This document shows, piece by piece, positions 1,549 to 63,707 of a DNA stretch of 63,707 bases. The position numbers and the translations under genes are program-made. Source of the stretch: a virus; the IMG/VR virus record IMGVR_UViG_3300030520_000019, positions 1 through 63,707 of that record. One strand, given 5' to 3'. The notes under the pieces are model-generated. The model was not told the origin of the DNA. It saw only the letters and a list, made by a program, of their open reading frames with translations, and ran no database searches. How positions within the stretch are numbered: the first letter of the stretch is position 1; every line of letters begins with the position of its first letter.

Positions 1549-1579
1549 CACTTTGATGCGGCTTTAATGGAGAGTTGAA

Positions 1580-1969: not shown

Positions 1970-2206
1970 ATGAACCGCCATACCATGTACATGCACGACG
2001 TGTACTTCACTGCCACGCACCATAGCGGGCAAGTAGCCGTGATGCGTCAACCGGCCGGATGCCTGACGGCAGCGCTGGTGACCACACTGCCGCTCAACGA
2101 AGCCATTCGGGCGTGCAACGCCTTGCGCCGCGAAGCGCGCACGCCTCTGGAGCTGCCTGACCGCGTTCTGCCGGCCGTGCTGCCCAACCCGCTTCTGCAG
2201 GACTAG
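1970..2206 (+). CDS. Hypothetical protein (78 aa)
   Basis: The ATG at 1970 is chosen because AAGAAGGAG ends 6 bases before it; an in-frame start 27 bases upstream has no ribosome site. A TATAGT box at 1939-1944 could be a promoter -10, although no good -35 is visible. The protein has a His/Tyr-rich N-terminus and a Leu/Arg/Pro-rich C-terminus. No family is recognised. Confidence 0.6.
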   Translation: MNRHTMYMHDVYFTATHHSGQVAVMRQPAGCLTAALVTTLPLNEAIRACNALRREARTPLELPDRVLPAVLPNPLLQD

Positions 2207-2298
2207 GGTTTCTACCTAGACACAAGTCATTTCGGTCATCGGATAATTGTTTCACCGGCAAGCACTGCCGGCAACGCCACTCACCTGAAGGAACCGAA

Positions 2299-2502
2299 AT
2301 GTACCAAGTTACCGTCTTCACCCGTACCGCCGCCCCCGAAGTTCACCTTTTCGAGTCTAAGCGTGACGCTGTTGCGGCTGCAGATCAGCTTGGTGGCGAA
2401 GGTCGCAGCGCCGAGGTCACCGACCAGCGCGACGGCACCTTCAACGATTCGGTGCAGTGCTACTACTCGCGCGGCGCTTGCGCTGGTGCCCGCTACAAGT
2501 AA
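2299..2502 (+). CDS. Hypothetical small phage protein (67 aa)
   Basis: A 67-aa protein preceded by AAGGA at good spacing. It begins with an alternating hydrophobic beta-strand segment, has an Ala-rich helix, and ends in CYYSRGACAGARYK. The compact alpha/beta pattern looks like a real small fold. A GATAAT box near 2241 may belong to a promoter for this gene. No function is assigned. Confidence 0.6.
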   Translation: MYQVTVFTRTAAPEVHLFESKRDAVAAADQLGGEGRSAEVTDQRDGTFNDSVQCYYSRGACAGARYK

Positions 2503-2510
2503 GTCAAGCG

Positions 2511-2528
2511 AGCGGGTGAAAACCCGCT
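2511..2528 (+). other. Hairpin with GAAA tetraloop upstream of helicase
   Basis: AGCGGGT, GAAA and ACCCGCT form a perfect 7-bp stem with a GNRA loop, 8 bases after the preceding stop. There is no T-run. TACACT at 2528-2533 abuts it, and the same hexamer appears in promoter candidates elsewhere in this genome. Confidence 0.5.
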
Positions 2529-2595
2529 ACACTGCACATCGCAGCACAACCCGGCGCGTCCGCCGGGGCTGCACCACACCTAAAGGAATACCGCC

Positions 2596-4134
2596 ATGAA
2601 CCGTCCCGCCAACAGCCTGCCGCCCGTCCAGCCTTACGTCCGTGACCCGAACTGGGTCGACCCCACGCCCCCGGTGCGCGTGGCGCGTAATTGGTCGTCG
2701 TACCAGCAGGCCATCTTCGACTTCGTACGCACGGCAACGGGCAACGCGGTGATCAAGGCGGTGGCCGGCAGCGGCAAGTCGACCACCATTGTGGAAGCGA
2801 TGAACTTGGTGCCGTCGCACCTGGGCACCGTGTTCCTGGCCTTCAACAAGTCGATAGCCGACGAGCTGAAGGGCCGAGGTGTCAACGCCAAGACGTTTCA
2901 CAGCCTGTGCTACAGCGTGGTCACACGTTACAAGAACGTGCGCGCGGCCGACCCCGACAAGCTCTTCAAGTTGGTCAAAGAGCACTTCAGCGGCGCTGAC
3001 GACCGAATCTACGGAGGCTTCGTCAAGCGGTTGGTGGGGTTGGGCCGTGGTGTGGGCATCGACGCGCTGGTGCCCAACGTGGAGGCAAGCTGGCTGGAAC
3101 TGATTGCGCACCACGACCTCGAACTGGACAACGAGGAGGGCAACCTTGGCCGCGCGATCGAGCTGGCGCAGGAGCTGCTCGAACTCAGCAATAACAGCGA
3201 CATGATCGACTTCGACGACATGCTGTACATGCCGGTCAAGTTCGGCCTGTCGCTGCCCAAGTTCGACTTCGTGTTCGTTGACGAAGCCCAGGACACCAAC
3301 GCCATCCAGCGCGCGCTGCTGCGCAAGATCCTCAAGCCTAACAGCCGACTGATTGCCGTGGGCGACCCTAAGCAAGCCATCTACGGGTTTCGCGGTGCCG
3401 ACAGCGAGTCGATGAATATGATTGCCGAGGAGTTCGGCTGCATCGAGTTGCCGCTGACCGTGTCGTACCGCTGCGGTACCGACATCGTCAAGTACGCACA
3501 GAAGTGGGTGCCGTACATCGAGGCCGCTCCCAACGCACCGACGGGTGAAGTGCGCGACCTAGAACTCGACTGGAAGCCTGCCACCCAGTTCACCGCCGAA
3601 GACCTCGTGGTGTGCCGTACCACGAGGCCGCTGATCACGCTGGCCTACACGCTCATGCGCGCGAAAGTGCCTTGCTACATCATGGGCCGGGAGATCGGCC
3701 AGGGCATGAAAGCACTCATCAACAAAATGAAGGCCAGCAGCATCAATGACCTCGAAGTACGCCTCGAGAAGTGGCGCGAGCGCGAGACCGAGAAGGCGCG
3801 GGCCAAAGGTGACGAGGCCAAGACTGAAGCTATCGATGACAAGTTCGAAGCTATCACGTTTTTGGCGGACAGCCTTGTCGAGACGCAACGCCACATCCCC
3901 GGCCTGCTGGCGCTGGTGGATAGCCTGTTCGCGGACGGCGTCGGCAAGGTGCGGCTCGCCACTATCCACAAGTCGAAGGGCCTGGAAGCCGACGTGGTGC
4001 ACTGGTTGCAACCCAAGACGGACTTCTCCCGCTGGATCAAGAAGGACTGGCAAAAAGAACAGGAAAAGCACCTGTGCTATGTCGCGGTCACCCGCGCGAA
4101 GTCGAAGTTGTACGTACTGAGCGAACAAAGCTAA
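2596..4134 (+). CDS. UvrD/Rep-like superfamily 1 DNA helicase
   Basis: A 512-aa helicase with Walker A AVAGSGKSTT (Lys61), motif II FVFVDEAQDTN (Asp229, Glu230), motif III AVGDPKQAIYGFRGA, a TIHKSKGLE motif, and a C-terminal YVAVTRAKSKLYVLS. These are the ordered motifs of ATP-dependent 3'-5' helicases of the UvrD/PcrA type. It probably unwinds DNA in replication or recombination together with the upstream polymerase. AAGGAA precedes the ATG. A terminator-like hairpin follows at 4170. Confidence 0.93.
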   Translation: MNRPANSLPPVQPYVRDPNWVDPTPPVRVARNWSSYQQAIFDFVRTATGNAVIKAVAGSGKSTTIVEAMNLVPSHLGTVFLAFNKSIADELKGRGVNAKTFHSLCYSVVTRYKNVRAADPDKLFKLVKEHFSGADDRIYGGFVKRLVGLGRGVGIDALVPNVEASWLELIAHHDLELDNEEGNLGRAIELAQELLELSNNSDMIDFDDMLYMPVKFGLSLPKFDFVFVDEAQDTNAIQRALLRKILKPNSRLIAVGDPKQAIYGFRGADSESMNMIAEEFGCIELPLTVSYRCGTDIVKYAQKWVPYIEAAPNAPTGEVRDLELDWKPATQFTAEDLVVCRTTRPLITLAYTLMRAKVPCYIMGREIGQGMKALINKMKASSINDLEVRLEKWRERETEKARAKGDEAKTEAIDDKFEAITFLADSLVETQRHIPGLLALVDSLFADGVGKVRLATIHKSKGLEADVVHWLQPKTDFSRWIKKDWQKEQEKHLCYVAVTRAKSKLYVLSEQS

Positions 4135-13699: not shown

Positions 13700-15190
13700 T
13701 TAGCGGTTGACGTTGATCAGGATGTCCACGGTGTGGATCGCGCCAGCCAGCTTGGCAGCGACTTGGAAGGTAACGGACTTGCGGGCCGCACGATCCGTGG
13801 GGTTCTGGCTGGCAATAGGCGGTGCGTAGACGTAGTATCCATTCGGCAGGAAGTCGCCGGTCGCCAGCGTGCCGAAGCCGGTCTGGTTCCAGATGCCCGG
13901 TGCGAGCAACCCATTGTTGACGTATGCCGACAGGCGGGCCGAGATTACGTTGACGATGCTGTGGTTGCCGGCATCCGTTTGCGGAATCTTGGTGGGACTG
14001 GTATAAAGGAAGTTGTAGACGTCCGACTGAATGTCCAGTGCCAGCGCGTCTGTACCAATCACGGTATCAATGAAGTCGCCCGAAGCACAGAGACCCGGTT
14101 CAATGATGGCAGTGTTATTGTTGTACGCCACGAAGACATTGCAGTTCTTGGCTTCGAGCGCACTGATCTGCGAAACGTTCATGTTCTCCGCCACGATGCC
14201 CGGTTCCTGCTTGTACATCAGCGTGATGACCGAGTTGTTCGCGGTATAGTCCGTCGTCAAGATGCGCGCCAGCATAGAGACCACGGCATATGGGTTGGAA
14301 CTGCTGTACTGCGTAGCGGTATGGCGGTATCCTGCCTGATTGAGCAGATACGGAATGGACGTCGTGTCCGTACTATTGAGAACAGCCGCCTCTTGTGTGG
14401 TCACACCGAAGAAGTGGCGGTTCTCGCTACCTTCAATGTACGGAGCGATTGCCAGGGTATCGGCGTCCACGCTGCCCAGCACGGTCACGGCGTACCAGAT
14501 TTGCCCGTAGTTGCTGTCAAACAGTGTCACAGCCGCCAGCGCCGTTTCGGCCACCGCGCCTTGAGCCGTGTAGGCGCCCAGGGCCGCCGTCATGCAGGTC
14601 AGCGCGCTGATGTCGGTGCCGCCCGTGCCTGCCGTGACGAAGCCAACAGTGGCGCCCGCGCCGGTAGCGGTGCTGGTGAGCTCGAAACGCTGGAAGGATG
14701 CGTTCCAGACGATGGTTGCCGCCACCGACGCGCCGGTCAAGGCCGTCTGGATAATGGACGCCACACCGTTGAGATTGGTGGCGCCACTGAAGTTCATCGC
14801 CGTCAGCGACGTGACCGTGCCGCCGACGCTGACGTGCAAGGAACCGTTCGTGATGGCGTTCCACGTCGCGATCAGTTGGTCCGCCGCAGGCAGCTCTCCA
14901 CCGCGCAAGTACGCAGGCGATGCCGACTGCACCCAGCGGCCAATCAGCAGGCTCGTCGGTTGCGGAAGCTGTTCGAACCACAGCAGAGCAGCAAGGTACT
15001 CCGGCGCGGTCGTGCCGAAGTCGGTCGCCACTTCAGACAGGCCGTTGTAGACACGGTACCGTTCCGTCGGATCGATCGTGGCCGACGAACCCAGGATCAG
15101 GAGCTGCGACGTGTTCTGTGCGGCGGCACCACCGGGCGTAAGGTTGACCGACGTGCTGATCAGCCGGCTGATGGGAAGCGAAGCGGTCAT
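13700..15190 (-). CDS. Contractile tail sheath protein, DUF3383-like
   Basis: A 496-aa sheath protein with the DUF3383 pattern: the N-terminal PISRLISTSVNLTPGGAA, the YRVYNGLSEVATDFG segment, and the C-terminal YVYAPPIASQNPTDRAARK region. It defines the virion as a myophage. No frame breaks are seen. A long antisense open frame covers it but is judged a shadow. Confidence 0.92.
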   Translation of the reverse strand: MTASLPISRLISTSVNLTPGGAAAQNTSQLLILGSSATIDPTERYRVYNGLSEVATDFGTTAPEYLAALLWFEQLPQPTSLLIGRWVQSASPAYLRGGELPAADQLIATWNAITNGSLHVSVGGTVTSLTAMNFSGATNLNGVASIIQTALTGASVAATIVWNASFQRFELTSTATGAGATVGFVTAGTGGTDISALTCMTAALGAYTAQGAVAETALAAVTLFDSNYGQIWYAVTVLGSVDADTLAIAPYIEGSENRHFFGVTTQEAAVLNSTDTTSIPYLLNQAGYRHTATQYSSSNPYAVVSMLARILTTDYTANNSVITLMYKQEPGIVAENMNVSQISALEAKNCNVFVAYNNNTAIIEPGLCASGDFIDTVIGTDALALDIQSDVYNFLYTSPTKIPQTDAGNHSIVNVISARLSAYVNNGLLAPGIWNQTGFGTLATGDFLPNGYYVYAPPIASQNPTDRAARKSVTFQVAAKLAGAIHTVDILINVNR

Positions 15191-31694: not shown

Positions 31695-32165
31695 TCAGTA
31701 ACGCAGCACGAAATCCGGGCGGCGATTCGAAGGTGCAGCCGGCGGAAGCAGGCACAGCGCCACCAGCACCGGGATATTTTCAAGGCATGCGCCCTGCTGC
31801 GCAAGCGCCGTCAGGGTATCCACCTTCGCCCATTCTAGGGGCTCGTCGGTCTGGTTTAGATTCAGATCGGGCCAGACACAGCCTTCGGTTTTGAAGACGT
31901 CAATGTCCCAAGGTTCTTTCGGGTCGTCTCGTATCATCCGGCCAACGCGGTCCCAGCAGAAATCCGGTGTTGCGCAGCCGGTTTCTTCATGGAACTCACG
32001 TGCCATTGCCATGAAAGGGTCTTCCCATCCCAAGGCGCCATCACATTCCCGCTTGCCGCCCACCCCGTTGAGCTTGCCGGCCTGCCAGTCGGGCCGCGCC
32101 TTGAGTATCAGCAAGACGGTGTTGTCGAGCGGGTTGAAGGCGAAGCCGAGTACCATGCGTTTCAT
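31695..32165 (-). CDS. NUDIX hydrolase
   Basis: A 156-aa protein with a NUDIX box: GGKRE near residue 37, then EDPFMAMAREFHEETG with the REx2EE catalytic core. The spacing between the GGK loop and the first Glu is longer than the canonical G-x5-E, suggesting a loop insertion. It probably hydrolyses nucleotide derivatives and could influence nucleotide pools, perhaps in connection with DNA modification. It overlaps the upstream stop by four bases. Confidence 0.82.
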   Translation of the reverse strand: MKRMVLGFAFNPLDNTVLLILKARPDWQAGKLNGVGGKRECDGALGWEDPFMAMAREFHEETGCATPDFCWDRVGRMIRDDPKEPWDIDVFKTEGCVWPDLNLNQTDEPLEWAKVDTLTALAQQGACLENIPVLVALCLLPPAAPSNRRPDFVLRY

Positions 32166-32488
32166 TTGACGACTCCTCTGTCAATGTACGTCACGTGCAC
32201 GACGGGTGACTTGCGTGCAGCACGGTCGGCATCGGTCTGTGCCTTGCCGATGTGAATGCGGAAGGCTTGCGCCATCGGGCCGCCCGGCTTGAACGGGTAG
32301 GCATCTGCCGGCACACGTTCAACTTCGAGCAACAGCTTCAGGATCTCGCGTTGCATCTCGACGTTCAGCCAGTCGAGTTTACGGTTCATTTCGAACGCGT
32401 GATGCTCGATCTCCATTTGGTCCTGGGCCACCCGTACCGCGTGTTCGAAGCTGGACCGGAACTTGAGCATCGGCGGCCATGCATCCAT
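32162..32488 (-). CDS. Hypothetical helical protein (108 aa)
   Basis: A 108-aa protein of charged helices (AVRVAQDQMEIEHHAFEMN), ending with a strand VVHVTYID. The start at 32488 overlaps the preceding stop. No family is recognised. Confidence 0.55.
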   Translation of the reverse strand: MDAWPPMLKFRSSFEHAVRVAQDQMEIEHHAFEMNRKLDWLNVEMQREILKLLLEVERVPADAYPFKPGGPMAQAFRIHIGKAQTDADRAARKSPVVHVTYIDRGVVK

Positions 32489-32652
32489 CACACTCTCCGC
32501 AGGCAAGCGTACCGCCGCTGGTCGTCGTTGAACTGGAAGCACTGTGCTTGCTTGCGCGCTTCCAGCTTCTGCGAGGCGTACCCGCAGACGAACATCAGCA
32601 GCACGAAGCACGCGAAGGCGAGCACGGGGACGATGATAGATTGACGGATCAT
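32488..32652 (-). CDS. Small membrane protein (54 aa)
   Basis: The ATG at 32652 follows AAGGAG closely. Residues 6-24 are hydrophobic (IVPVLAFACFVLLMFVCG), and a charged Cys-containing tail follows. It might be a spanin-like or regulatory membrane peptide. Too little sequence is available to decide. Confidence 0.5.
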   Translation of the reverse strand: MIRQSIIVPVLAFACFVLLMFVCGYASQKLEARKQAQCFQFNDDQRRYACLRRV

Positions 32653-46267: not shown

Positions 46268-46477
46268 ATGGGCAGCAATCGTCTTGGATTCCTTCTCGCT
46301 GCCGTACTGTGCCGGGCAGTCGATTATTATCATCTGTCGCGTGAGGTTGCAGAAGACCTTGCCGAAGGCATGGGCGGCACGCAACTGGACCACGCACAAG
46401 GCTACCTTCGCTTGCGTGAACACGAACTCGGCAAAGCCATCGGCGCCGCTGTTGAAGAACTCAAGGAACTCAAGTGA
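46268..46477 (+). CDS. Hypothetical protein (69 aa)
   Basis: A 69-aa helical protein (GFLLAAVLCRAVDYYHLSRE) with GGAGGGTGGTGAG before the ATG. Its stop overlaps the GTG of thyX. Confidence 0.55.
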   Translation: MGSNRLGFLLAAVLCRAVDYYHLSREVAEDLAEGMGGTQLDHAQGYLRLREHELGKAIGAAVEELKELK

Positions 46478-47235
46478 TCCACGCCAACCCTAACCAGATC
46501 GCCGTCCTAGACCACGGTTTCGTCAAGCTGCGCAACCTCGCCGGGCCGACGCGGCGTCACTGGGACATCAATATTGCAAGCCTTGACCAGCGTCCAATGC
46601 TTCGCCCCTTCGACGCTGACGACACCGACGTCGCCAACGCGGCTCGCCTGTCGTTCGAAGGCCAGGACCAGGAGCGCGGCTACGACGCCGAGATGAAGCT
46701 GACGCGCTACCTCGCGCAGCACCACCACGACACGCCGTTCGAGATCATCGAAGTGTGGCTCGAGATGAAGCTGCCGATCTTCGTGGCCCGCCAGTTCGTG
46801 CGCCAGCGCACCCAGACGATCAACGAGGCCAGCGGCCGGTACATCACGCTTCCTGAGCAGTGGTACATCCCGGCCGTCGTGGGCGGCAAGGCACCAAACG
46901 CCAAGCAAGGCCAGGAAGACAACCTGGACGAAGTCACGCAGGGCTGGTTCCGCCAAGAGCTCAACATGGACTGCGAGAACGGGTATGCGCTGTACAAGAT
47001 GGCGTTGGCTCGCGGCGTGGCACCGGAGCATGCCCGCATGTTCCTTCACGTCAACCACTACACGCACTGGATGATGAAGATGAACCTACGGAACCTGATG
47101 TTCAGTTTCCTGCGGCTTCGTTACCACAGCCACGCCCAGGTGGAAGCGCAAGCGTACGCCAAAGGCACGTTCGAGCTCATCGAACCGCACCTGCCGGGCC
47201 TGATGAAGATCTACCAGGAATTTATCGCGCAATGA
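46474..47235 (+). CDS. thyX: Flavin-dependent thymidylate synthase
   Basis: A 253-aa ThyX. The signature RQRTQTINEASGRY (Arg110 to Tyr123) fits the RHRx7S motif with the His replaced by Gln. It makes dTMP from dUMP using FAD, NADPH and methylene-tetrahydrofolate. HYTHWMMKMNLRNLMFSF near the C-terminus is also conserved. It supplies thymidylate for phage DNA synthesis alongside MazG and NUDIX proteins. Confidence 0.92.
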   Translation: MIHANPNQIAVLDHGFVKLRNLAGPTRRHWDINIASLDQRPMLRPFDADDTDVANAARLSFEGQDQERGYDAEMKLTRYLAQHHHDTPFEIIEVWLEMKLPIFVARQFVRQRTQTINEASGRYITLPEQWYIPAVVGGKAPNAKQGQEDNLDEVTQGWFRQELNMDCENGYALYKMALARGVAPEHARMFLHVNHYTHWMMKMNLRNLMFSFLRLRYHSHAQVEAQAYAKGTFELIEPHLPGLMKIYQEFIAQ

Positions 47236-51812: not shown

Positions 51813-52039
51813 TCGCAGTGTGCGCGTATACGTACGCGCTGCTAGAATTAGGGTTCGCTGTCGGGCAGTGGAAGCAACGGCTCGCTGAGCCTGTGCCGGC
51901 CGCTTGCCCGGCACCCAAGACCGAACCCGAACGCTGCATGGCGTTCTGGTTCGGCAGAGATTCCGTGCGCGACAAGGATTCGTTGCGCCGTCAAGTATGT
52001 GGTCAGGACTCCCGTGACAGCCATCCGCCTCGCAAATAA
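51785..52039 (+). CDS. Membrane-anchored small protein (84 aa)
   Basis: It overlaps the upstream gene by 28 bases. Residues about 4-28 are hydrophobic (FAFALIAVCAYTYALLELGF), and a Pro/Cys/Arg-containing tail follows. It may be periplasmic. The start at 51785 is the best ATG but lacks a strong ribosome site. Confidence 0.45.
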   Translation: MSRSFAFALIAVCAYTYALLELGFAVGQWKQRLAEPVPAACPAPKTEPERCMAFWFGRDSVRDKDSLRRQVCGQDSRDSHPPRK

Positions 52040-52982
52040 CACCCTCGCCGCTATCGAAGCGGCGCTCGTAGCCGACCAAGGCGCTAAGTTTCGCGGTCTT
52101 GAAGGCAAGGTGTTTCCACACATGTCGGACGCCTACCGTGACGAACCGGAAGAAGGTTTTCGGTCACACCTGGGCGCCTCACTGCTGGGCGGCGAATGCG
52201 CGCGCGACCTGTGGTACGGGTTCCACTGGTACCACAAGGGCAAGTTCAACGGCAAGACGCTTCGGTTATTCAACCGTGGACATCTTGAAGAAGCCCGGTT
52301 CATTGCGTTGCTTCTTATGATCGGGGTGCAAGTCTACCAGCAGGATGCCGAAGGTAAGCAGTACCGCATCAGCGAGCTAGGCGGCCACCTGGGCGGCAGC
52401 GGCGACGGCGTGGGCATCGGCGTACCCGACAACCCTGGCGGCCCCAGCTTGCTTGAGTTCAAGACGCACGGTGAAACGTCGTTTGATGAACTCGCTGGCA
52501 AATCCTGGCGCAAGGTACACGCCGGCCTATGCGACCCGCGCGAACCGCAACTGCCCTTCGACGGCAAAGGCGTGCGCGCCGCCAAGTTCGAACACTTTGT
52601 GCAGATGCAGACGTACATGCGCAAGATGGGCATCATGTGCGGGCTGTACATGGCCGTCAACAAGAACACCGACGACATCTACGCTGAGATCGTTCTGCTC
52701 GATGCCGACTTCGCTGACCAGTTCTTGCAGCGTGGGCGGCAGGTGATCATGATGGCCGATCCGCCTAAGAAGCTGAGTGAGTCACCGGGCTGGTACGGGT
52801 GTAAGTGGTGTAACCACAAGCCAGTCTGCCACCTGAAGGCGGTGCCGGAAGTGAACTGCCGGACGTGCCGGTTCAGCGAACCCGTTGCCGACGGCACCTG
52901 GGTGTGCGTCAATCCGGTGGCACCCGGCCCGATTAACAAGGCTACCCAGCTCAAGGGGTGCAGCCACTACGAGGTGCGTTGA
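52014..52982 (+). CDS. RecB/Cas4-like PD-(D/E)XK nuclease
   Basis: A 322-aa nuclease. HLEEARFIALL, GSGDGVGIGV and LLEFKTHG provide the Glu, Asp and Glu-x-Lys active site. A C-terminal Cys cluster (CKWCNHKPVCH, then CRTCRFS) may hold zinc or an iron-sulfur cluster. AGGA lies before the GTG at 52014; 51999 is an alternative start. It precedes and overlaps the SF2 helicase start, suggesting a helicase-nuclease pair. Confidence 0.82.
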   Translation: MTAIRLANNTLAAIEAALVADQGAKFRGLEGKVFPHMSDAYRDEPEEGFRSHLGASLLGGECARDLWYGFHWYHKGKFNGKTLRLFNRGHLEEARFIALLLMIGVQVYQQDAEGKQYRISELGGHLGGSGDGVGIGVPDNPGGPSLLEFKTHGETSFDELAGKSWRKVHAGLCDPREPQLPFDGKGVRAAKFEHFVQMQTYMRKMGIMCGLYMAVNKNTDDIYAEIVLLDADFADQFLQRGRQVIMMADPPKKLSESPGWYGCKWCNHKPVCHLKAVPEVNCRTCRFSEPVADGTWVCVNPVAPGPINKATQLKGCSHYEVR

Positions 52983-54709
52983 TGGGACTAACTAAGGTTC
53001 CGCGCAACTATCAAGTTGCGGCGCATGACTCGATCTATGCCTATTTTCGGGAGAAAAAAGGTAATCCCGTGATTGCGCTGCCCACGGGCACGGGCAAGGC
53101 GCTGGTCATTGCCATGTTTTTGATGTCTGTGCTGCGCCAGTGGGCCAGCCAACGCATTTTAGTGCTGACGCACGTGAAAGAATTGGTCGCCCAAAACCAT
53201 GCGGAACTAAAGGAACTATGGCCCGAGGCCCCGGCCGGTATCTTCAGTGCCGGCCTCGGCAAGAAAGAGACGTACTACCCTATCACATTCGCCGGCATTG
53301 CTTCGATTGTGAAGATGCTGCACTTGTTCGGGCGCATTGATCTCATCATCATTGACGAAGCACACCTCGTCAATCCTACCGAAGAGACGATGTACAAGGC
53401 ACTCATTGAAGAGCTGCTGCTACGCAACCCGGCGCTGAAGGTGATTGGCCTGACGGCAACCCCGTACCGGCTGGGGCATGGGAAGATTACCGAAGACGGC
53501 ATTTTCACAGATGTCTGCTTCGACATGACAACCATGAAGGCATTCAACTGGTTGCTTGAACAAGGCTTCCTTGCGCCGCTGGTGCCGAAGCAGATGAAGG
53601 CGCTGATCGACACCGATGGCGTGGGCCTGATTGCTGGCGAGTTCAACAAGGCGAAGCTTGAACTTGCGGTAAACAAAGACGAGGTGACAGAAGCTGCACT
53701 GCGCGAGTGCATGGAGCACGGGCACGACCGCAAGCACTGGCTAATCTTTGCCAGCGGCATCGAACACGCGCACAAGATTGCAGATATGCTAAACTTGATG
53801 GACGTCTCCACCGTTTGCGTGCACAGCAATACCAAAGCGTTCCCCATGTCGGACACGCAGCGGGACGACAACATTAAAGCCTTCAAGGCCGGGGCTGTGC
53901 GGTGTGTGGTCAATAACAATGTGCTCACAACCGGTTTCAACTACCCTGCCATCGACATGATTGTCATGCTGCGGCCCACCATGTCGACTGTGCTGTGGGT
54001 GCAGATGCTGGGGCGGGGGACACGCCCCTGGGAAGGAAAGGAAGACTGCCTTGTGCTCGACTTCGCGCGAAACAGTCTGCGCCTTGGGCCTATCAACGAC
54101 CCCGTCATCCCGCGCAAGAAGGGCGAAGGCACTGGCGAAGCTCCAGTCAAGCTGTGCCCTTCGTGTGAGACATATGTCCACGCAACACTCAAGATCTGCC
54201 CCGAGTGCAAGCACGAATTCATCTTCATGCACAAGCTCGACCAGACGGCGGGCACGGCCGAACTCATCAAGGTTGATCTGCCGATCACCGAAGTGTTTCC
54301 GGTTGACCATATGACATTTAGCATCCACATGAAGGCTGGGGCGCCGGAGATGCTGAAGGTGTCATACTACAGCGGGTTGACGAAGGCGTTCTACGATTAC
54401 GTGTGCATCGAACATCAAGGCTATGCGCGTAAGAAGGCCGAGAAATGGTGGAAGCAGCGTTCGCATGAAAGCGAACAGGTGCCCAGCAAGACGCGCGAAG
54501 CGATCGAACTTGCCAGCGGGCTAAGACCGCCGACGCACTTGCGGGTGTGGATCAACAAGAAATATCCTGAGATCATGGAATACTGCTTCGACGGCACGGC
54601 GTTCGGCACGCAGCTAGACGACGGCAAGGTGGTTGACATAGTGGTACCGAACGCTGCACCGGCACCGCAGGTGCCCAGCAACTTGATGGATGACGATATT
54701 CCATTCTAG
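52982..54709 (+). CDS. Superfamily 2 helicase with SSB-like C-terminal tip
   Basis: A 575-aa DEAH-type helicase: motif I LPTGTGKA (Lys39), motif II DEAH (125-128), motif III LTATPYR, motif V NVLTTGFNYP and motif VI QMLGRGTRP. A zinc ribbon (CPSCETYV, then CPECKHEF) and a helical C-terminal domain follow. The last residues are MDDDIPF, identical in DDDIPF to the C-terminal tip of bacterial SSB, a docking peptide for host repair proteins. It overlaps the nuclease gene by one base. Confidence 0.92.
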   Translation: MGLTKVPRNYQVAAHDSIYAYFREKKGNPVIALPTGTGKALVIAMFLMSVLRQWASQRILVLTHVKELVAQNHAELKELWPEAPAGIFSAGLGKKETYYPITFAGIASIVKMLHLFGRIDLIIIDEAHLVNPTEETMYKALIEELLLRNPALKVIGLTATPYRLGHGKITEDGIFTDVCFDMTTMKAFNWLLEQGFLAPLVPKQMKALIDTDGVGLIAGEFNKAKLELAVNKDEVTEAALRECMEHGHDRKHWLIFASGIEHAHKIADMLNLMDVSTVCVHSNTKAFPMSDTQRDDNIKAFKAGAVRCVVNNNVLTTGFNYPAIDMIVMLRPTMSTVLWVQMLGRGTRPWEGKEDCLVLDFARNSLRLGPINDPVIPRKKGEGTGEAPVKLCPSCETYVHATLKICPECKHEFIFMHKLDQTAGTAELIKVDLPITEVFPVDHMTFSIHMKAGAPEMLKVSYYSGLTKAFYDYVCIEHQGYARKKAEKWWKQRSHESEQVPSKTREAIELASGLRPPTHLRVWINKKYPEIMEYCFDGTAFGTQLDDGKVVDIVVPNAAPAPQVPSNLMDDDIPF

Positions 54710-54741: not shown

Positions 54742-54770
54742 TTGTGTGGTTGTCAAGAGCTCTATACAGT
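54742..54770 (+). promoter_or_regulatory. Promoter candidate before deazaguanine-region genes
   Basis: TTGTGT (54742-54747), 17 bases and TACAGT (54765-54770) in a 120-base intergenic gap. It shares both boxes with the candidates at 40967 and 42319. Confidence 0.45.
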
Positions 54771-54829
54771 GCAACTCATCCGGCTGCAACCGCTGCCGGT
54801 GTAACCCGCCAATCACTGGAGTACCCACC

Positions 54830-55732
54830 ATGCAAGCTCAAGCGCAAACCCTGATTCATCCGGTCATCCACTTCAAGCCGCAAGCCAAGTCGAACGCCAA
54901 GCGTTTTCTGGTCAAGACCAGCAAGGTCGCCGAAGACGATGTGCCGCTGTACCTGACGCAAGTCGACGGCGAATGGGGCACGTACACCAACGAGGCCGGC
55001 GAGCCGATCAAGATCGACAAGCTGGCGGGTGCCGTGGATCGTTCGATCATGCGCGAAATCGAGGCACACGTTTCGCCTGCGCAGGCTGCCGCCGAAGCGC
55101 GGGTCAATGCCCCGGCAATCACTACAGCTGACACGCCGGTCACCGTGCAAGCGGCTACCGAAGGCGTCGAGCACGCCATCCCCGACGCGCCGGCTGCCAT
55201 GGGCGGCTTCAGCGTGTTCAGCGCCCTCGGTGGCGCCCCCGTGCCCGCCGCTGCCACGGCTGCCAGCACCGTCGTGCGCGACGGCAAGGTGGTCGACCCC
55301 GACGCCCCTGCCGAACGCACCGACAAGGCTGTGCAAGCCGGCGATACGTGCCCGCTGTGCGGTGCCGACCACGCCAAGCAAACCGCCGCCAACGAGGGCG
55401 TGAGCCAGACCTGCGGCGGCTGCGGCAAGACCTACAGCATGGCGACGGGCCGCGAGGTGCGCATCGGCTACAAGCGCGATGACGTCAATCGCGGCTACAC
55501 CATCGAAAAGAACCGCGCCGAGCAAAACGGCGTGAAGCGACCGAGCGCAGGCACCCTGTGCGGCCAAGTGTGGGCCGCCCTGGACGCGGTGCACGCCACG
55601 CACATGCCGGTCGCCGCCGATCTCGACACCATCGCCACGGTCAACAACTGGAACCGGAACAACGTGTCGTGCGAGTTCTACCAGTGGCGCAAGTTTATGG
55701 GCATCAAGGGTCGCCAAGTCCGCGCCAAGTAA
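54830..55732 (+). CDS. Zinc-finger protein with QNGV/EFYxW domain (300 aa)
   Basis: A 300-aa protein. An N-terminal beta region (about 1-60), an Ala/Pro-rich linker, a zinc finger (CPLCGADHAKQ, then CGGCGKTY) and a C-terminal domain with EQNGVKRPSAGTLCGQVWAA and CEFYQWRKFMGIKG. The last part is shared with the 1580 and 56620 proteins. GGAG precedes the ATG. It may bind DNA. Its function is unknown. Confidence 0.72.
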   Translation: MQAQAQTLIHPVIHFKPQAKSNAKRFLVKTSKVAEDDVPLYLTQVDGEWGTYTNEAGEPIKIDKLAGAVDRSIMREIEAHVSPAQAAAEARVNAPAITTADTPVTVQAATEGVEHAIPDAPAAMGGFSVFSALGGAPVPAAATAASTVVRDGKVVDPDAPAERTDKAVQAGDTCPLCGADHAKQTAANEGVSQTCGGCGKTYSMATGREVRIGYKRDDVNRGYTIEKNRAEQNGVKRPSAGTLCGQVWAALDAVHATHMPVAADLDTIATVNNWNRNNVSCEFYQWRKFMGIKGRQVRAK

Positions 55733-56619: not shown

Positions 56620-57279
56620 ATGAACCACCCGCAACACGCGCAGGCCGCTGCGCCGGCTTCGCAGCCGATCCCCGAACAACTGGCCGCCCAGAAGGCCGCA
56701 GCCGACGCGCAAGCCAAGGCCGATGCGGCTGCCGCGAAGCAGGCCGAGAAGGACGCCAAGGCGAAGGAGAAGGCCGAGAAGGCTGCCGCTGCCAAGGCCG
56801 AAAAGGAAGCCGCTGCCACCAAGAAGGCCGCCGACGCGCAAGCCGCAAAGGACGCCAAAGCTGCGGAAGCCAAGGCGAAGGCAGACGAGATCGCGAAGAA
56901 GAAGGCTGACGCCGAAGCCGCCAAGAAGGCCAAGGAAGATGAGAAGGCCGCCAAGGCGCAGAAGAAGATCGACGACGCGGCTGCGGCCAAGGCCGCCAAG
57001 GAAGCGGCGCGCCAGCCCGAGCAGAACGGTGTCCGCCGGCCGGGTCCCGAGGGCCTGTGCGGCAAGGCGTGGGCCGTGTTCGACGCCGAGTCGAAGCGCC
57101 TGGGCCAGCCGGTCACCATCGGTGACGCGCTGAAGGTCGGCGAACCGCAGAGCCTCAACGCGGGCAACATGCGCACCGAATACGCGCGCTGGAAGAAGTT
57201 CCATGGCCTGACCGGCGCGGTCGCCAAGCCCGCTGCCGCCCCGGTGCCGGCTCCGGCTGCTCAAGGCGCCACGGCCTAA
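56620..57279 (+). CDS. Ala/Lys-rich coiled-coil protein with QNGV domain (219 aa)
   Basis: A 219-aa protein. Residues about 20-130 are an Ala/Lys/Glu/Asp repeat helix like TolA or histone-H1-like proteins. The C-terminus (EQNGVRRPGPEGLCGKAWAV, then EYARWKKFHGLTG) is the domain shared with the 1580 and 54830 proteins. The basic helix could bind DNA or act as a long spacer. A strong terminator follows. Confidence 0.72.
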   Translation: MNHPQHAQAAAPASQPIPEQLAAQKAAADAQAKADAAAAKQAEKDAKAKEKAEKAAAAKAEKEAAATKKAADAQAAKDAKAAEAKAKADEIAKKKADAEAAKKAKEDEKAAKAQKKIDDAAAAKAAKEAARQPEQNGVRRPGPEGLCGKAWAVFDAESKRLGQPVTIGDALKVGEPQSLNAGNMRTEYARWKKFHGLTGAVAKPAAAPVPAPAAQGATA

Positions 57280-57382: not shown

Positions 57383-58126
57383 ATGCAGCTGAACAGTCAG
57401 CCCATGGAACACATTGATGTCGCGTCGGGAGACGTACTTGATGTCCATTCTATCTTCTACACCCTGCAAGGTGAAGGCCCCTTCACCGGCCGCCCCGCAG
57501 TGTTCATTCGCTTGGCGGGCTGCAACTTGCAGTGTCCAGCCTGTGACACGGACTACACCAGCGGGCGTGAGAAGCGAAGCGTGACCAGCATCATTGCCGG
57601 CGTACACAACGCGGCACCCGACAGGGCAGCGCGACCACTTGTGGTCATCACGGGCGGCGAGCCTTTCCGTCAAAAGATCTACGGCCTGTGCCACGACCTT
57701 CTGCGCGAAGGCTACACGGTGCAAATCGAAACGAATGGCACGTTGCCGCCACCCAACCCGGTATTCGGAGATCTCTGTTCGACCGACTTGACGGACGAGA
57801 ACGTGATCTTCATCGTATGCAGCCCCAAGACGGGTCGCGTCAATCGATACCTGGAACCACTGGTGGCCGCGTACAAGTACGTTCTCGATGCCGACAGCGT
57901 GAACGATGACGACGGTCTGCCGATTCTGGCCCTGGGCCACACGGCCCACCCGCACGTCGCCCGGCCGCCTGTTGGCTTCCTGGGGCCGGTGTACTTGCAG
58001 CCGGCCGACATGCAAGATGAGGCACTGAACAAGCGCAACCGTCAAGCCTGTGTCATCCTCGCTATGAACGCACCGGACCGTTTCACGGTTCAGCTTCAGA
58101 CACACAAGATCCTCAATCTCGAATAA
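57383..58126 (+). CDS. queE: 7-carboxy-7-deazaguanine synthase, QueE
   Basis: A 247-aa radical SAM enzyme that turns carboxy-tetrahydropterin into 7-carboxy-7-deazaguanine. The cluster motif GCNLQCPACDTDY has Cys47, Cys51 and Cys54 (Cx3Cx2C). FYTLQGEGPFTGRPAVFIRL before it and VITGGEP (88-94) are family hallmarks. CGGAG lies upstream of the ATG. It is the first gene of a five-gene operon that builds and inserts a deazapurine into DNA. Confidence 0.93.
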   Translation: MQLNSQPMEHIDVASGDVLDVHSIFYTLQGEGPFTGRPAVFIRLAGCNLQCPACDTDYTSGREKRSVTSIIAGVHNAAPDRAARPLVVITGGEPFRQKIYGLCHDLLREGYTVQIETNGTLPPPNPVFGDLCSTDLTDENVIFIVCSPKTGRVNRYLEPLVAAYKYVLDADSVNDDDGLPILALGHTAHPHVARPPVGFLGPVYLQPADMQDEALNKRNRQACVILAMNAPDRFTVQLQTHKILNLE

Positions 58127-58135
58127 GGTCACCAC

Positions 58136-59536
58136 ATGTGTTCAATCATTGGTGCAGTCTTGTACCGTCAAAGCGGGCTGCCTTGGGAATTGGAATCGCT
58201 GCTGCGTGTCACCTGGGGTAACAGCCTGCGCCGGGGTCGCGACGGGCGCGGGTTTGTGGCTCGTACTACCGATATCGAAGGCCGCGTCAAAATAGGGTTG
58301 AAACGGTCCGTCGTTCGGCGCGAGCATTTCCCGGACATCTACCCGCACATCCCGCCGTTCACCACGTCGTTTGACATGGTGGGCAACCAGCGGGCGGAGC
58401 CGACTACCGAGTTTGTCCAAGACAAGCAAGAGTTCGATCAGCAGCCGTATTCGCACAGTGGTTGGCATGTTGTGCACAACGGCACTATCGCCAACGACAA
58501 AGAGCTGCGTACGGGTGACGTGCCCACAAGCATCGACAGCGCGGCTATCGTCGAAGTGCTGGCAAGCGTGTCGCCGAACACAACGGCCTTCGCCAGTGCG
58601 ATCCGGAAGTTGAAGGGTTCGTATGCAATCCTTGCGATGCATGACAGCCTGCCGGGCGTCATGTTTTCAGCCTGTAACTACCGCCCTATCTGGTACGTGC
58701 AGACGCCAAGCGGCTTTGTGTTTGCTTCAGAACGCGGTGCATTCCCACAAGGTTACGTTCCGCAGATGCTGCGACCGTACAGCGTGGCGACGTTCGGGTG
58801 CACGGGCACGGTCGAACGCGTTGCGCTGCTGGAACCTGTCGTTGACGGCGAAGCCCGCAAATCGCTCAAGACAGCGCTGGTCGTGTGCAGCGGCGGCCTG
58901 GACAGTGTGGTTAGCGCGGCGGCCATGCAGAAGCGGGGCTATGAGCTTCACCTGATTCACTTTCAATACGGGTCGCGTGCGCAAACGCCCGAGCTAGAAG
59001 CGGTGCGCAAAGTGGCAAAGCACTTGGGGGCTGACTTCGACATCGTGCCTCTGCCGATTTACCGCAAGCAAGACAGTCCGCTCCTGGACCCCGACAGCAA
59101 GGTGGCAGGCGGCGAGGCGGGCGCCGAATTCGCGCACGAGTGGGTGCCGGCACGGAATACGGTGCTGCTCGCCATGGCGGTCGCATTTGCCGAAGCCAGG
59201 GGCTACGAAACGATCGTGCTGGGGAACAACCTGGAAGAAGCCGGGGCGTACCCCGACAACGAACCGGAGTTCATTGCCCGCTGGAACGATCTGCTGCCGT
59301 TCGCTGTGGGTGACGGCAAACGCATGCGCATCGAGATGCCTGTCGGCAACATGATGAAGCACGAGATCGTCGCACTGGGGCACGAGTTGGACGCGCCCAT
59401 GGACATGACGTGGTCGTGCTACAGGGCCGGGGCGCTGCACTGCGGGTCGTGTGGGCCGTGCTACATGCGTCGGAAGGCGTTCGCGATCAACGGGCTTCCC
59501 GAAGTGATCAACTACCAGGATGAGCAAGATGTATAG
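58136..59536 (+). CDS. queC: Glutamine amidotransferase-QueC fusion (Gat-QueC)
   Basis: A 466-aa fusion. Residues 1-235 are a class II glutamine amidotransferase with N-terminal Cys2, RRGRDGRGF and HNGTIAND. Residues 245-466 are QueC: the pyrophosphatase loop CSGGLDSVVS (251-260), WVPARNTVLLAMA, and the four-Cys zinc site Cys428, 436, 439 and 442. QueC makes preQ0; the amidotransferase can supply ammonia to turn the nitrile into an amidine. Such Gat-QueC proteins are associated with archaeosine, including deoxyarchaeosine in phage 9g. Confidence 0.92.
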   Translation: MCSIIGAVLYRQSGLPWELESLLRVTWGNSLRRGRDGRGFVARTTDIEGRVKIGLKRSVVRREHFPDIYPHIPPFTTSFDMVGNQRAEPTTEFVQDKQEFDQQPYSHSGWHVVHNGTIANDKELRTGDVPTSIDSAAIVEVLASVSPNTTAFASAIRKLKGSYAILAMHDSLPGVMFSACNYRPIWYVQTPSGFVFASERGAFPQGYVPQMLRPYSVATFGCTGTVERVALLEPVVDGEARKSLKTALVVCSGGLDSVVSAAAMQKRGYELHLIHFQYGSRAQTPELEAVRKVAKHLGADFDIVPLPIYRKQDSPLLDPDSKVAGGEAGAEFAHEWVPARNTVLLAMAVAFAEARGYETIVLGNNLEEAGAYPDNEPEFIARWNDLLPFAVGDGKRMRIEMPVGNMMKHEIVALGHELDAPMDMTWSCYRAGALHCGSCGPCYMRRKAFAINGLPEVINYQDEQDV

Positions 59537-59975
59537 ATCGACTAAGACGTATGGGCATGACCTGGGCCTGTCCGCCTGCTTCCGCCAGTGGCGAGCTCAG
59601 TCGCACTGCAACCTTTTGCATGGGTACGCGCTGGCGTTTACCATCACGTTCGACTGTGACAAGCTTGACGAAAATGGGTGGGTGATGGACTTTGGCGCAC
59701 TGAAGCCTGTCAAGACGGAGATCGAACGGCTATTTGATCACACTGTGCTTGTTGCGTGCGATGATCCTGAACTGAATCGATTCGTGGCGCTGAACAACGC
59801 CGGTATGATTCAGTTAGTCGCTGTTCAGCGCACGGGGTGCGAAGCTTTTGCCAAGCTGGTATTCGACAACGTGACCACATGGCTGCGCAGCTACCAGAAG
59901 GGTCGTGTGCGAGTGGTGTCGGTTGAATGCAAGGAACACGGCGCGAACAGCGCCATCTACATTGGAGGCAATTGA
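59520..59975 (+). CDS. queD: 6-carboxytetrahydropterin synthase, QueD-like
   Basis: A 151-aa tunnelling-fold enzyme of the preQ0 pathway. Catalytic Cys30 lies in SHCNLLHGYALAF, with the LFDHTVL dyad and a C-terminal VECKEHGA. Compared with E. coli QueD, two of the three zinc histidines are changed: one is Cys20 and the last of HGH is Tyr36. It overlaps the QueC gene by 17 bases and shares a base with folE. Confidence 0.87.
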   Translation: MSKMYRSTKTYGHDLGLSACFRQWRAQSHCNLLHGYALAFTITFDCDKLDENGWVMDFGALKPVKTEIERLFDHTVLVACDDPELNRFVALNNAGMIQLVAVQRTGCEAFAKLVFDNVTTWLRSYQKGRVRVVSVECKEHGANSAIYIGGN

Positions 59976-60556
59976 TGAACGCACCGTACGAGAAGCCGCC
60001 GACTGTCAATGAGCAGATTATCTATGACGTGCTGGCGCACCTGTGCGGCGAGAACCCCGAACGGGGTGGTCTGAAGGACACGCCGGCCCGTGTGGTCAAG
60101 GCGTGGGAATTCTGGACAAGCGGCTACGGCATGAACGCGGCAGACATCCTCAAGACGTTTGAGGACGGTGCCGAGGGTTGCGACCAGATGGTCATTCGCA
60201 AGGACATCCCGTTCTACTCGCACTGCGAGCACCACATGGCCGCCATCTTCGGAACATGTACCATCGCGTACATCCCGAACGGGCGTGTGGTTGGCCTGTC
60301 AAAGATGGATCGCCTGTGCGAGATGTTCATGCGCCGGCTGCAAGTACAGGAAAGAGCGACCAACCAGATCGCCGATGCGATGATGGAGCACCTCATGCCG
60401 ACCGGCGTGGGCGTGTACATCAACGCCCGTCATATGTGCGTGGAATCGCGTGGCGTGCGTAACGGCAACAGCGCGACAATCACGACGGCACTGCGCGGTG
60501 CGTTCCTCAACGAGCCGGCAACAAGAGCAGAGTTTCTCGCGGCAGCTCGCGGGTAA
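59975..60556 (+). CDS. folE: GTP cyclohydrolase I, FolE
   Basis: A 193-aa enzyme that makes dihydroneopterin triphosphate from GTP, the first step toward preQ0. The zinc and active-site motif SHCEHH (82-87), HMCVESRGV (153-161, with Cys155) and GLSKMDRL are intact. A phage copy relieves dependence on the host folate route. The start overlaps the queD stop. Confidence 0.95.
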   Translation: MNAPYEKPPTVNEQIIYDVLAHLCGENPERGGLKDTPARVVKAWEFWTSGYGMNAADILKTFEDGAEGCDQMVIRKDIPFYSHCEHHMAAIFGTCTIAYIPNGRVVGLSKMDRLCEMFMRRLQVQERATNQIADAMMEHLMPTGVGVYINARHMCVESRGVRNGNSATITTALRGAFLNEPATRAEFLAAARG

Positions 60557-60565
60557 AATGGCGCC

Positions 60566-61489
60566 ATGAACCTCTACTGCGCTGCTGTCTACACGAATAA
60601 CTATAGAGCCGGACAGCGGCAGTACCAGCATTTCAACGAGCGTGAACGCGAGTGTGTCGACGGTGTTCCCCACATTCTCGAATCGTTTCACTACGTGGGC
60701 AAGCAGAGTTTCGTTGACGATATGCGAAAAGATGGAGCGAAGATCTTCCTGGACTCCGGCGCCTTCTCGTCCTTCACCCAAGGCGTTGCGCTCGACGTGC
60801 GCGTGTACTGCGATTACATCAAGCGCAACATGGATATCATTCGCTTCGACGATGGGGTGATGATGGCGTCCGTGCTCGATGCGATTGGCGACCCATTGGA
60901 GACGTACCGCAACCAGCTTTGGATGGAAAGCCTGGGCGTGCGCCCGCTGCCTTGTTTCCATGCCAACGAAGACGAACGGTACCTCGAACACTATGTCAAA
61001 AACTACGAGTACATCACACTCGGCGGTATGGTGGGTGCCAGTTCGAAGCAACTGATGAATTGGCTGGACCGTATCTGGGACCGGTACCTTGTGGACGGCG
61101 CAGGGCGCCCGCGCTGCAAGGTGCATGGGTTCGGTATCACAGCCGTGCCAATTATGCAGTCATACCCTTGGTGGAGCTGCGATTCGTCGTCGTGGATTCA
61201 ATCGACCTCGTTCGGCACCATTGTGACACCTGACTGGGGCCCGATCGCAGTGAGCGACAAGTCGCCCAGCCGGCACGACGCCGGCCAACACATCACGACG
61301 TTTAGCGAAGTGGAGCGCCAAGCCATAATTGCCAAGCTGGCCGAGCAGGGCTACGACTGGGAGCGTCTTGCTACGGTGTACCAGTCGCGGGCGGCCTTCA
61401 ATTTATGGGCATACTGCGAGTTGAACAAACGAATGAACGTTGAGAACGACTACACGCAGATGACGCGCGTCAAACAGGAACTGTTCTGA
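60566..61489 (+). CDS. dpdA: DpdA-like DNA-guanine transglycosylase
   Basis: A 307-aa TGT-superfamily protein. IFLDSGAFSSFTQG (60-73) corresponds to the DSGxFQ loop with general-base Asp63, ITLGGMVG (150-157) to the GG substrate loop, and KVHGFGIT and SCDSSSW (Asp206) to the late barrel strands with a candidate nucleophile. Its size and position after four preQ0 genes match phage DpdA, which swaps guanine in DNA for a 7-deazaguanine. It lacks the tRNA-TGT zinc domain. Confidence 0.85.
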   Translation: MNLYCAAVYTNNYRAGQRQYQHFNERERECVDGVPHILESFHYVGKQSFVDDMRKDGAKIFLDSGAFSSFTQGVALDVRVYCDYIKRNMDIIRFDDGVMMASVLDAIGDPLETYRNQLWMESLGVRPLPCFHANEDERYLEHYVKNYEYITLGGMVGASSKQLMNWLDRIWDRYLVDGAGRPRCKVHGFGITAVPIMQSYPWWSCDSSSWIQSTSFGTIVTPDWGPIAVSDKSPSRHDAGQHITTFSEVERQAIIAKLAEQGYDWERLATVYQSRAAFNLWAYCELNKRMNVENDYTQMTRVKQELF

Positions 61490-61969: not shown

Positions 61970-62929
61970 GTGCTGGCTGAGCTTAAGTTTGTGATGGGAG
62001 CGGTGTCCAAGAAGGATCTGATTCCGTCGATGGCCCACTTCGCGATCGACGGGGGCCGCGTACGGGCTTACAACGGCGTCGTTGCGCTGTGCAGCCCCAT
62101 AGCCCTTGATCTGGAGTGCAAGCCCCGTGCAGAGCCCATGGTGCGAGCCATAGGCCATTGCAGCGAGACGGTAACGCTGGCCCGCACGCCGGCCGGCAAG
62201 CTAAGCATTAAGAGCGGCACCTTCCGCGCTCTAATCGAGTGCCTGCCAGACGAACAAGTGACACCACATGTCGAGCCTGAAGGTGATGTGGTGGAGATCA
62301 ACGGCGCGGCGCTGCTAGAAGCATTCAAGGCGTGCTCGCCCTTCGTCGGCAACGACGCTTCCCGTGCCTTCAGCAACGGCATCCTTCTTAAGGAGGGTTC
62401 CGCCTTTGCGACGAACAACGTGATGGCGGTGCAATATTGGGTCGGCCACGCGCTGCCCCATGTGGTCAACATACCCATGAAGTGCGTGCAAGAAATGGTT
62501 CGCATTGACGAAGCGCCTGTCAGCGCGTTGTTCGCGGCCAATAGCATCACTTTCCACTACACGGGTGACCGTTGGATTCGCACGCAACTGCTGAACGTCG
62601 AGTGGCCCGACATCACGAAGATCTTGGATCGCGAGTCTAACGCCACACCGATCGACAAGGAACTGTTTGCAGCCATCGCCAAGGTCAAACCATTCCTTGA
62701 CAAGTACGGCCGCATTTATTTCCACGAGGGTGCTGTGTCGACACATGCTGACCACTCCGAGGGCACGTACGTGGAAATTCCTGGGTTCGCGAACGCTGGC
62801 ATCTACCGTCACGAATACCTTGCGCTGCTGGAAGACACGGCAGAACGCATCGACTGGACAACGTACCCCGACCCTTGCATGTTCTTCGCTCCGCGCCTGC
62901 GTGGCGCCATCATCGGAGTTCACAAATGA
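61970..62929 (+). CDS. Sliding-clamp-like DNA polymerase processivity factor
   Basis: A 319-aa protein with a GTG start after GGAG. The pattern resembles phage beta-clamp/PCNA-type proteins: a repeated alpha-beta layout, FAIDGGRVRAYNGVVALC at the start, FSNGILLKEGSAFATNNVM in the middle and RIYFHEGAVSTHAD late. It sits just before the DNA polymerase, its expected partner. Fold and motif positions are inferred by eye. Confidence 0.72.
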   Translation: MLAELKFVMGAVSKKDLIPSMAHFAIDGGRVRAYNGVVALCSPIALDLECKPRAEPMVRAIGHCSETVTLARTPAGKLSIKSGTFRALIECLPDEQVTPHVEPEGDVVEINGAALLEAFKACSPFVGNDASRAFSNGILLKEGSAFATNNVMAVQYWVGHALPHVVNIPMKCVQEMVRIDEAPVSALFAANSITFHYTGDRWIRTQLLNVEWPDITKILDRESNATPIDKELFAAIAKVKPFLDKYGRIYFHEGAVSTHADHSEGTYVEIPGFANAGIYRHEYLALLEDTAERIDWTTYPDPCMFFAPRLRGAIIGVHK

Positions 62930-63051
62930 TTCGACAAGCCATTCCCCGGCCTGTGCAACAGCCGTCACCCGTGTGCCCGTGGTGCGGTTGCACCTTCAAG
63001 TTCGTCTCATACGGACGCCATAAAGAACACTGCCCCAAGCGGCCGAAGTGA
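62926..63051 (+). CDS. Small C2HC zinc-finger protein (41 aa)
   Basis: A 41-aa protein: CPWCGCTFKFVSYGRHKEHC gives a likely C2HC zinc finger. Its start overlaps the clamp stop and its stop overlaps the polymerase GTG, so it is tightly coupled to both. Confidence 0.6.
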   Translation: MIRQAIPRPVQQPSPVCPWCGCTFKFVSYGRHKEHCPKRPK

Positions 63052-63707
63052 GAAAAGACGCAATCGGCTTTTTCTGGGCCGATCACGAGAAAGAGAAGGC
63101 GGCTAAGAAAGTCGTCGAAAAGCGTACGCCCCCCGCCCGCACCTGGGAAGCTGCGGGCTACCTGCCGGGGCTTGAAGAGGCGCAGCGCTTCAATGTCGAT
63201 CTGTTTACGTGGGAAGAGTTGTTCGCGGCTGCAATCAACCGTGAAGAGCTATTGTTCGACTTAGAGGTCTACCCGAATTATTTTCTGGCGGCCTTCTGTT
63301 CATACAAGTCCGGCAAAGTGATCTATTGCGAAGGCACACCAGACAACCCGCTGGATGTGCAGAAGTTGCGTTGGCTGATGGAGACGTTTACCACCGTCGG
63401 CTTCAACTCGATCCCGTTCGACATGCCTATCACCGCAATGGCGGTGGCCGGTTGCACCAATACGCAACTGAAGCAAGCGACGAACATGATCATCGTCGAA
63501 GGCATGCAGCGCCAAGACGTGCTGAAGCACTTCAAGGTCAAGAAGCTTAAAGGTTGTGACCACATTGATCTGATTGAAGTGGCGCCGCTCAGTGCCAGCC
63601 TGAAGATCTACGGCGGCCGGCTGCATGCGCCTAAGATGCAAGACTTACCGTTCCATCCGGACACAGAACTGTCGCCCGAACAAATTGCTATCGTTCGTTT
63701 CTACTGC
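63048..63707 (+). CDS. Family B DNA polymerase, N-terminal part (continues at base 1)
   Basis: The 5' part of the replicative polymerase. The GTG at 63048 overlaps the previous stop (GTGA). LLFDLEVYPN holds the ExoI motif (Asp71, Glu73) and VGFNSIPFDMP the ExoII motif (Asn120, Asp125) of the 3'-5' proofreading domain. The frame continues through the terminal overlap into base 1, where the palm motifs lie. Confidence 0.88.
   Translation, partial: MRKDAIGFFWADHEKEKAAKKVVEKRTPPARTWEAAGYLPGLEEAQRFNVDLFTWEELFAAAINREELLFDLEVYPNYFLAAFCSYKSGKVIYCEGTPDNPLDVQKLRWLMETFTTVGFNSIPFDMPITAMAVAGCTNTQLKQATNMIIVEGMQRQDVLKHFKVKKLKGCDHIDLIEVAPLSASLKIYGGRLHAPKMQDLPFHPDTELSPEQIAIVRFYC
63563..63707. repeat. Terminal overlap, right copy
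   Basis: The same 145 bases as 1-145, with the single difference at 63581. It lies inside the DNA polymerase gene and reflects circularity or circular permutation. Confidence 0.85.

Follow-up and report, generated by a model that had tools for sequence, protein, structure and literature searches.

A predicted 2'-deoxyarchaeosine operon with an atypical QueD in the genome of an uncultivated contractile-tailed phage

Introduction

In Enterobacteria phage 9g (Nonagvirus, Queuovirinae) part of dG is replaced by 2'-deoxyarchaeosine (dG+), as has been shown experimentally (PMC6884629), and dG+ accounts for 25-27% of dG in virion DNA (PMC5567051, PMC6884629). The 9g genes gat-queC and dpdA suffice for dG+ formation in Escherichia coli plasmid DNA, for which host queC is not needed, and dpdA alone introduces dPreQ0, the deoxynucleoside of 7-cyano-7-deazaguanine (preQ0), into plasmid DNA (PMC6884629). 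In 9g itself, preQ0 may be inserted and then amidated, or G+ may be inserted directly. In Pantoea phage vB_PagS_Vid5 ∼7.55% of dG was measured as dG+ by liquid chromatography-tandem mass spectrometry (PMC8306585), and DNA of Pseudomonas putida phage MiCath (NC_072502), a myovirus, is digested by HaeIII, NdeI and RsaI but resists EcoRI, BamHI and EcoRV (PMC10710427). Here, a five-gene operon of this type (queE, gat-queC, queD, folE and dpdA; positions 57383-61489, + strand) is described in IMG/VR record IMGVR_UViG_3300030520_000019, an uncultivated virus of 63,707 bases whose full length is hereafter called the window. The operon very likely represents a complete dG+ pathway, by which dG in the phage DNA would be replaced in part. 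The dG+ system is already known and the cassette itself leaves the known pathway unchanged; the window is a further case in an unusual phage background and with an unexplained QueD.

Organization of the operon and its counterparts in known phages

The five genes are consecutive on the + strand and all frames are open. A sequence-only reading of this DNA had proposed a complete five-gene operon, which is borne out by these frames, the profile matches and the synteny. QueE (57383..58126) matched PHROG 2076 (E=2.9e-49) and, slightly above the cut-off, Pfam Radical_SAM; its CX3CX2C cluster motif, CNLQCPACDT, and TGGEP are invariant in the alignment, and it is 47-52% identical to the proteins of five phages. 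Gat-QueC (58136..59536, 466 aa) consists of a class II glutamine amidotransferase (GAT) with an N-terminal Cys (approximately residues 1-235, to ∼58840) fused to a QueC half (approximately residues 241-466, from ∼58856) that carries the PP-loop SGGLDS and the zinc cysteines. It matched Pfam QueC (2e-56) and GATase_7 (5e-8), and scored 150.8 bits for TIGR00364 with a cut-off of 150.3. Cys2, R86, N115-G116, D134, SGG(L/M)DS and C428/C436/C439/C442 are kept in seven phages, at 51-58% identity. FolE, a GTP cyclohydrolase I (59975..60556, 193 aa), matched its Pfam family (6.9e-64) and TIGR00063 (201.6 bits, cut-off 181.6), is 53-61% identical to the proteins of five phages and has the invariant zinc ligands C84, H87 and C155. 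Its start was placed at the ATG at 59975, in a TGATG overlap; a longer frame from 59927 is possible, but the relatives fit the shorter one. Together with QueD (59520..59975, 151 aa) and DpdA (60566..61489, 307 aa), all members of the 9g-type dG+ cassette are present and intact, and the tested catalytic motifs are kept in all five proteins with the exception of the QueD zinc site.

The spacing between the genes is tight. The earlier claim that overlaps or gaps measure at most 9 bases is correct for the gaps (9 bases both between QueE and Gat-QueC and between FolE and DpdA) but not for the overlaps, which are 17 bases between Gat-QueC and QueD and 1 base between QueD and FolE. No terminator-like site was found on the + strand inside the operon, and sites resembling promoters or terminators were no more numerous in this region than in shuffled sequence, which makes expression as a single transcript plausible.

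The order Cas4 exonuclease, helicase, QueE, Gat-QueC, QueD, FolE, DpdA, clamp and polymerase is the same in 9g, PaMx25, MiCath, R7M and Vid5, and this recurrence in five phages is not due to chance. In the window, the Cas4-domain exonuclease (51999-52982, +; PHROG 1990, 1e-101) and the helicase (52958-54709, +; PHROG 16, 5.5e-93) lie upstream in the order of the relatives. Downstream follow the sliding clamp (61970..62929, +; PHROG 947, 5.7e-65), which has the same place in all five phages, and the N-terminal part of DNA polymerase B (63048..63707, +, continuing at 2-1522 across the contig ends; PHROG 1252). MiCath shares the cassette order, the flanking replication genes, the type of QueD and a contractile tail, and differs by one small open reading frame (ORF) between gat-queC and queD. 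In 9g the stretch from QueC through QueD, FolE, DpdA and clamp to polymerase is conserved (Gat-QueC 51-53%, DpdA 62% identical), but queE and gat-queC are separated by an additional ORF. Pseudomonas phage PaMx25 (Nipunavirus) has a Gat-QueC of 55-58% and a DpdA of 62-64% identity, most of its replication proteins being ∼50-60% identical, but extra ORFs precede folE and dpdA. Vid5 has the same pathway with several extra ORFs in the cassette.

DpdA of the phage type

The window DpdA is a 9g-type DNA 7-deazaguanine transglycosylase (PHROG 887, 6.5e-85), 62-69% identical to the proteins of 9g (62%), PaMx25, MiCath, R7M and Vid5; that of MiCath is the closest from a cultured phage (68-69%). H187 aligns with H196 of 9g. 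D63, in FLDSGAF, and D206 vary little or not at all among 28 diverse relatives; judging by their position and by the family as a whole, they would act as in tRNA-guanine transglycosylases. Sequence and profile searches of DpdA against the PDB gave no significant match, and therefore folds were compared. The best PDB matches of an AlphaFold model (pLDDT, the predicted local distance difference test score, 89.5) were archaeosine and queuine tRNA-guanine transglycosylases (E ∼1e-6, TM-score ∼0.5). For the bacterial DpdA equivalog NF041059 the protein reached only 16.2 bits, with a cut-off of 200; by its sequence it is of the phage type, not of the bacterial genomic-island type. By tblastn, DpdA matched 228 phage records and Gat-QueC 232, the best full-length matches being in Queuovirinae-type phages and MiCath.

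This DpdA bears on the question whether the genes chiefly feed preQ0 to queuosine (Q) in host tRNA rather than to DNA. FolE, QueD, QueE and QueC are common to the Q pathway, and such a role has been proposed for phages that lack DpdA (PMC6884629). The window, however, encodes a DpdA of the DNA-acting 9g type, Gat-QueC and DpdA of 9g do not rescue queC or tgt mutants of E. coli (PMC6884629), and no Q-specific gene turned up among the window proteins scanned, so a supply to host tRNA is extremely unlikely to be the main function.

A different gene order (DpdA-like, QueC with or without GAT, FolE, QueD, QueE) was seen in viral contigs L022, L100 and similar ones. Their DpdA-like proteins are only 24-30% identical to the window DpdA and possibly form a separate line in uncultivated viruses.

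A QueD with an altered metal site

QueD, the 6-carboxytetrahydropterin synthase, matched Pfam PTPS (1.7e-19) and PHROG 2389 (1.4e-42) and has the features of a PTPS-I protein (COG0720), namely the catalytic Cys, the Asp-His pair and the pterin-binding Glu. It keeps C30, H34, D73, H74 and E139, but lacks the three-histidine zinc site with its HGH motif; F21 and Y36 stand in place of two of the three canonical zinc histidines. The resulting 'HGY' signature, FRQWR..SHC..LHGY, is common to the QueD proteins of the window, MiCath, R7M and Edwardsiella phage vB_EpM_ZHS, whereas 9g, PaMx25 and Vid5 have a QueD with the canonical zinc site (GHR..SKC..LHGHN in 9g) in the corresponding operon position. 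The sequence-only reading had assigned the preQ0 genes folE, queD, queE and queC as well as dpdA, and these identities are supported by homology, synteny and motifs, but the loss of the zinc site had gone unnoticed there.

Two properties of this QueD weigh against a complete pathway encoded by the phage: two of the canonical zinc histidines are absent, and the score for TIGR03367 (47.0) is below the equivalog cut-off of 89.25. Because of these, the protein could be non-functional and the pathway could rely on host QueD, that is, on carboxytetrahydropterin from the host. The replacement of two of the three histidines runs through the whole group, and Bradyrhizobium, Caulobacterales and Acinetobacter rudis, among the genomes tested, have a second PTPS-family protein beside the HGY type. 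Against this stands the conservation within the group. Across 134 related sequences, taken from viral and cellular contigs, C30, H34, D73, H74 and E139 are invariant; the position of the first zinc His is taken by F, Y, M or L and that of the third by Y in all 134, while H29 is found in 131 and H140 in 132 of them. In 80 viral loci, the neighbours of the HGY gene include QueE (55), FolE (49), QueC (32) and DpdA (30). In two marine Euryarchaeota genomes, both metagenome-assembled and possibly incomplete, the HGY protein is the only PTPS-family match and adjoins QueC, QueE and FolE. An AlphaFold model (pLDDT 95.6) adopts the PTPS/QueD fold and matches QueD/PTPS structures, and the PDB relatives aligned with it have HGH. 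Dependence on host QueD is thus judged unlikely, and the conserved catalytic residues, the deazaguanine-gene neighbours and the two archaea in which it is the sole PTPS protein indicate that the HGY protein most likely functions as a QueD, with a changed metal site, in phages and in these two Euryarchaeota.

This brings to light a QueD group of considerable size that lacks the textbook zinc site. Tentatively, and with somewhat less than even confidence, the HGY proteins might be regarded as a separate carboxytetrahydropterin synthase branch, with a rebuilt metal site or without zinc, that has taken the operon position of canonical QueD in a number of dG+ phages and is the sole QueD of some marine archaea. 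Candidate metal ligands would be H34 and the nearly invariant H29 and H140, instead of the three-histidine site. No description of an HGY-type QueD was found in the literature searched, the coverage of which was limited. Contigs with HGY proteins include L112, L113, L102, L151 and L152.

Predicted pathway and modified base

In the proposed pathway, FolE would convert GTP to dihydroneopterin triphosphate, from which QueD would form carboxytetrahydropterin and QueE 7-carboxy-7-deazaguanine. The QueC half of Gat-QueC would then yield preQ0 via an amide, and DpdA would exchange guanine in phage DNA for the 7-deazaguanine, probably at 5'-GA. The amidotransferase half would convert the nitrile to the archaeosine formamidine, either ahead of insertion or after it. 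The prediction of dG+ had been made before from the amidotransferase half; it is supported by homology, synteny and motifs, by the published dG+ chemistry of the homologues in 9g and Vid5, and by the restriction resistance of MiCath.

Gene content has mispredicted the base before: for Dp-1, dG+ and dPreQ1 (the 7-aminomethyl derivative) were predicted and dPreQ1 was found, and nt-1 contains mostly dPreQ0 and little dG+ (PMC6884629). If the amidotransferase half were inactive or starved, the main base in the window phage could likewise be dPreQ0 or 2'-deoxy-7-amido-7-deazaguanosine (dADG), or intermediates could be mixed. However, Dp-1 and nt-1 use other amidotransferases (QueF-L and ArcS), the measured phages with Gat-QueC and DpdA, 9g and Vid5, contain mainly dG+ with little or no dPreQ0, and in the window the GAT residues Cys2, R86, N115, G116 and D134 are intact. 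A main base other than dG+ therefore appears quite improbable.

Sequence context and restriction

The sequence-only reading had held that base, context and modified fraction cannot be read from DNA; for the context a guess can be made, and it is 5'-GA. The sites at which MiCath DNA is resistant contain GA and those at which it is cut do not, and the DpdA of phage CAjan acts at GA and GGC (as cited in PMC8306585). GA accounts for 26.3% of all G in 9g, close to the measured 25-27% of dG+, for 22.1% in Vid5 and for 19.9% in the window, where GGC accounts for 9.8%. The modification context is therefore probably 5'-GA, and at most ∼20% of dG, chiefly in GA, would be replaced in the window phage if every GA were used. 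Two observations speak against a simple GA rule. Vid5 replaces only 7.55% of dG while GA makes up 22.1% of its G, and the rule is therefore an upper bound at most; furthermore, the authors of the 9g study saw no base bias beside G in resistant sites (PMC5567051). Partial replacement of dG would block restriction enzymes with GA in their sites, and in this way the modification very probably blunts bacterial restriction.

Avoidance of palindromes was considered as a footprint of such protection. Hexamer palindromes that contain GA show weaker depletion than the remaining G-containing palindromes in each of the seven Gat-QueC phages (log ratio 0.20-0.50, p 0.001-0.08). In D3 there was no such effect, but lambda gave a similar value (0.22); the signal is weak and was not used as evidence.

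A mosaic genome

A repeat of 145 bases with a single mismatch, lying within the DNA polymerase B gene, is shared by the two ends of the contig. The window is therefore a complete genome of ∼63.56 kb, in a circular or circularly permuted assembly, and the possibility that the contig is a fragment was rejected. Its G+C content is 59%, and tRNA and Rfam scans of the window gave no match.

Proteins encoded at ∼42.3-63.7 kb (42316-63707) and 0-4.1 kb (1-4134) match those of MiCath and of Queuovirinae, a viral subfamily whose members compared here are siphoviruses; the Queuovirinae-like replication and modification genes are ∼30-68% identical and their order is kept. The tail, head and portal proteins at 5605-27281 match Edwardsiella phage ZHS (∼26-64% identity). 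They include a tail sheath (13700..15190, -; PHROG 205, 5e-110) that is 54% identical to that of ZHS, and besides it baseplate hub and wedge genes were found, so that by its genes the phage is contractile-tailed, unlike a siphovirus of the Queuovirinae type. Sheath matches were absent in 9g, PaMx25, R7M, Vid5 and VPv62, which in the case of 9g argues against a contractile tail, and present in MiCath and ZHS. The MiCath sheath is only 24% identical to that of the window, and the two virion modules are therefore of different lines; MiCath thus provides an earlier case of this cassette in a contractile-tailed phage, with another tail module. ZHS in turn shares head, portal, sheath and baseplate in conserved order, but has a preQ0-type pathway with a stand-alone QueC, a distant DpdA (34%) and scattered genes, and gave no match to the replication module.

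By gene content, the genome thus combines a head and contractile-tail module like that of ZHS with replication and modification genes of Queuovirinae type. An assembly chimera of a Queuovirinae-like and a myovirus half was rejected, since two further, independent contigs carry the same junction: G001 is identical and G002 has a DpdA of 85% and a sheath of 79% identity, and in both the cassette and the sheath are spaced by ∼16.7 kb, as in the window. An uncultivated contractile-tailed phage is hereby added to the small set of phages with a predicted complete dG+ pathway, and the virion module to which its replication and modification block is joined differs from those of Queuovirinae and MiCath. 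As the block is joined to differing virion modules, it appears to travel as a unit.

Further observations were made on individual genes. The terminase large subunit is closest to that of Rhizobium phage RHph_TM3_3_3 (53%). The sequence at 32162-32611 (-), distant from the real sheath gene, weakly resembles the C terminus of tail sheath proteins (DUF3383, E=3e-4; PHROG 205, E=2e-4). The replication module contains a thymidylate synthase-like gene (46474-47235, +; PHROG 85, E=7.5e-46) that is shared with PaMx25 and R7M, while none was seen in MiCath, Vid5 or 9g. Finally, three proteins (1580-1900, 54746-55732 and 56620-57279, +) have in common a C-terminal domain of unknown function with the pattern NGV.rP...lC..vW..fD...N.R.E..rWr.F. 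This domain recurs in 9g, PaMx25, R7M and Vid5, and in these phages a neighbouring gene carries the annotation transcriptional activator.

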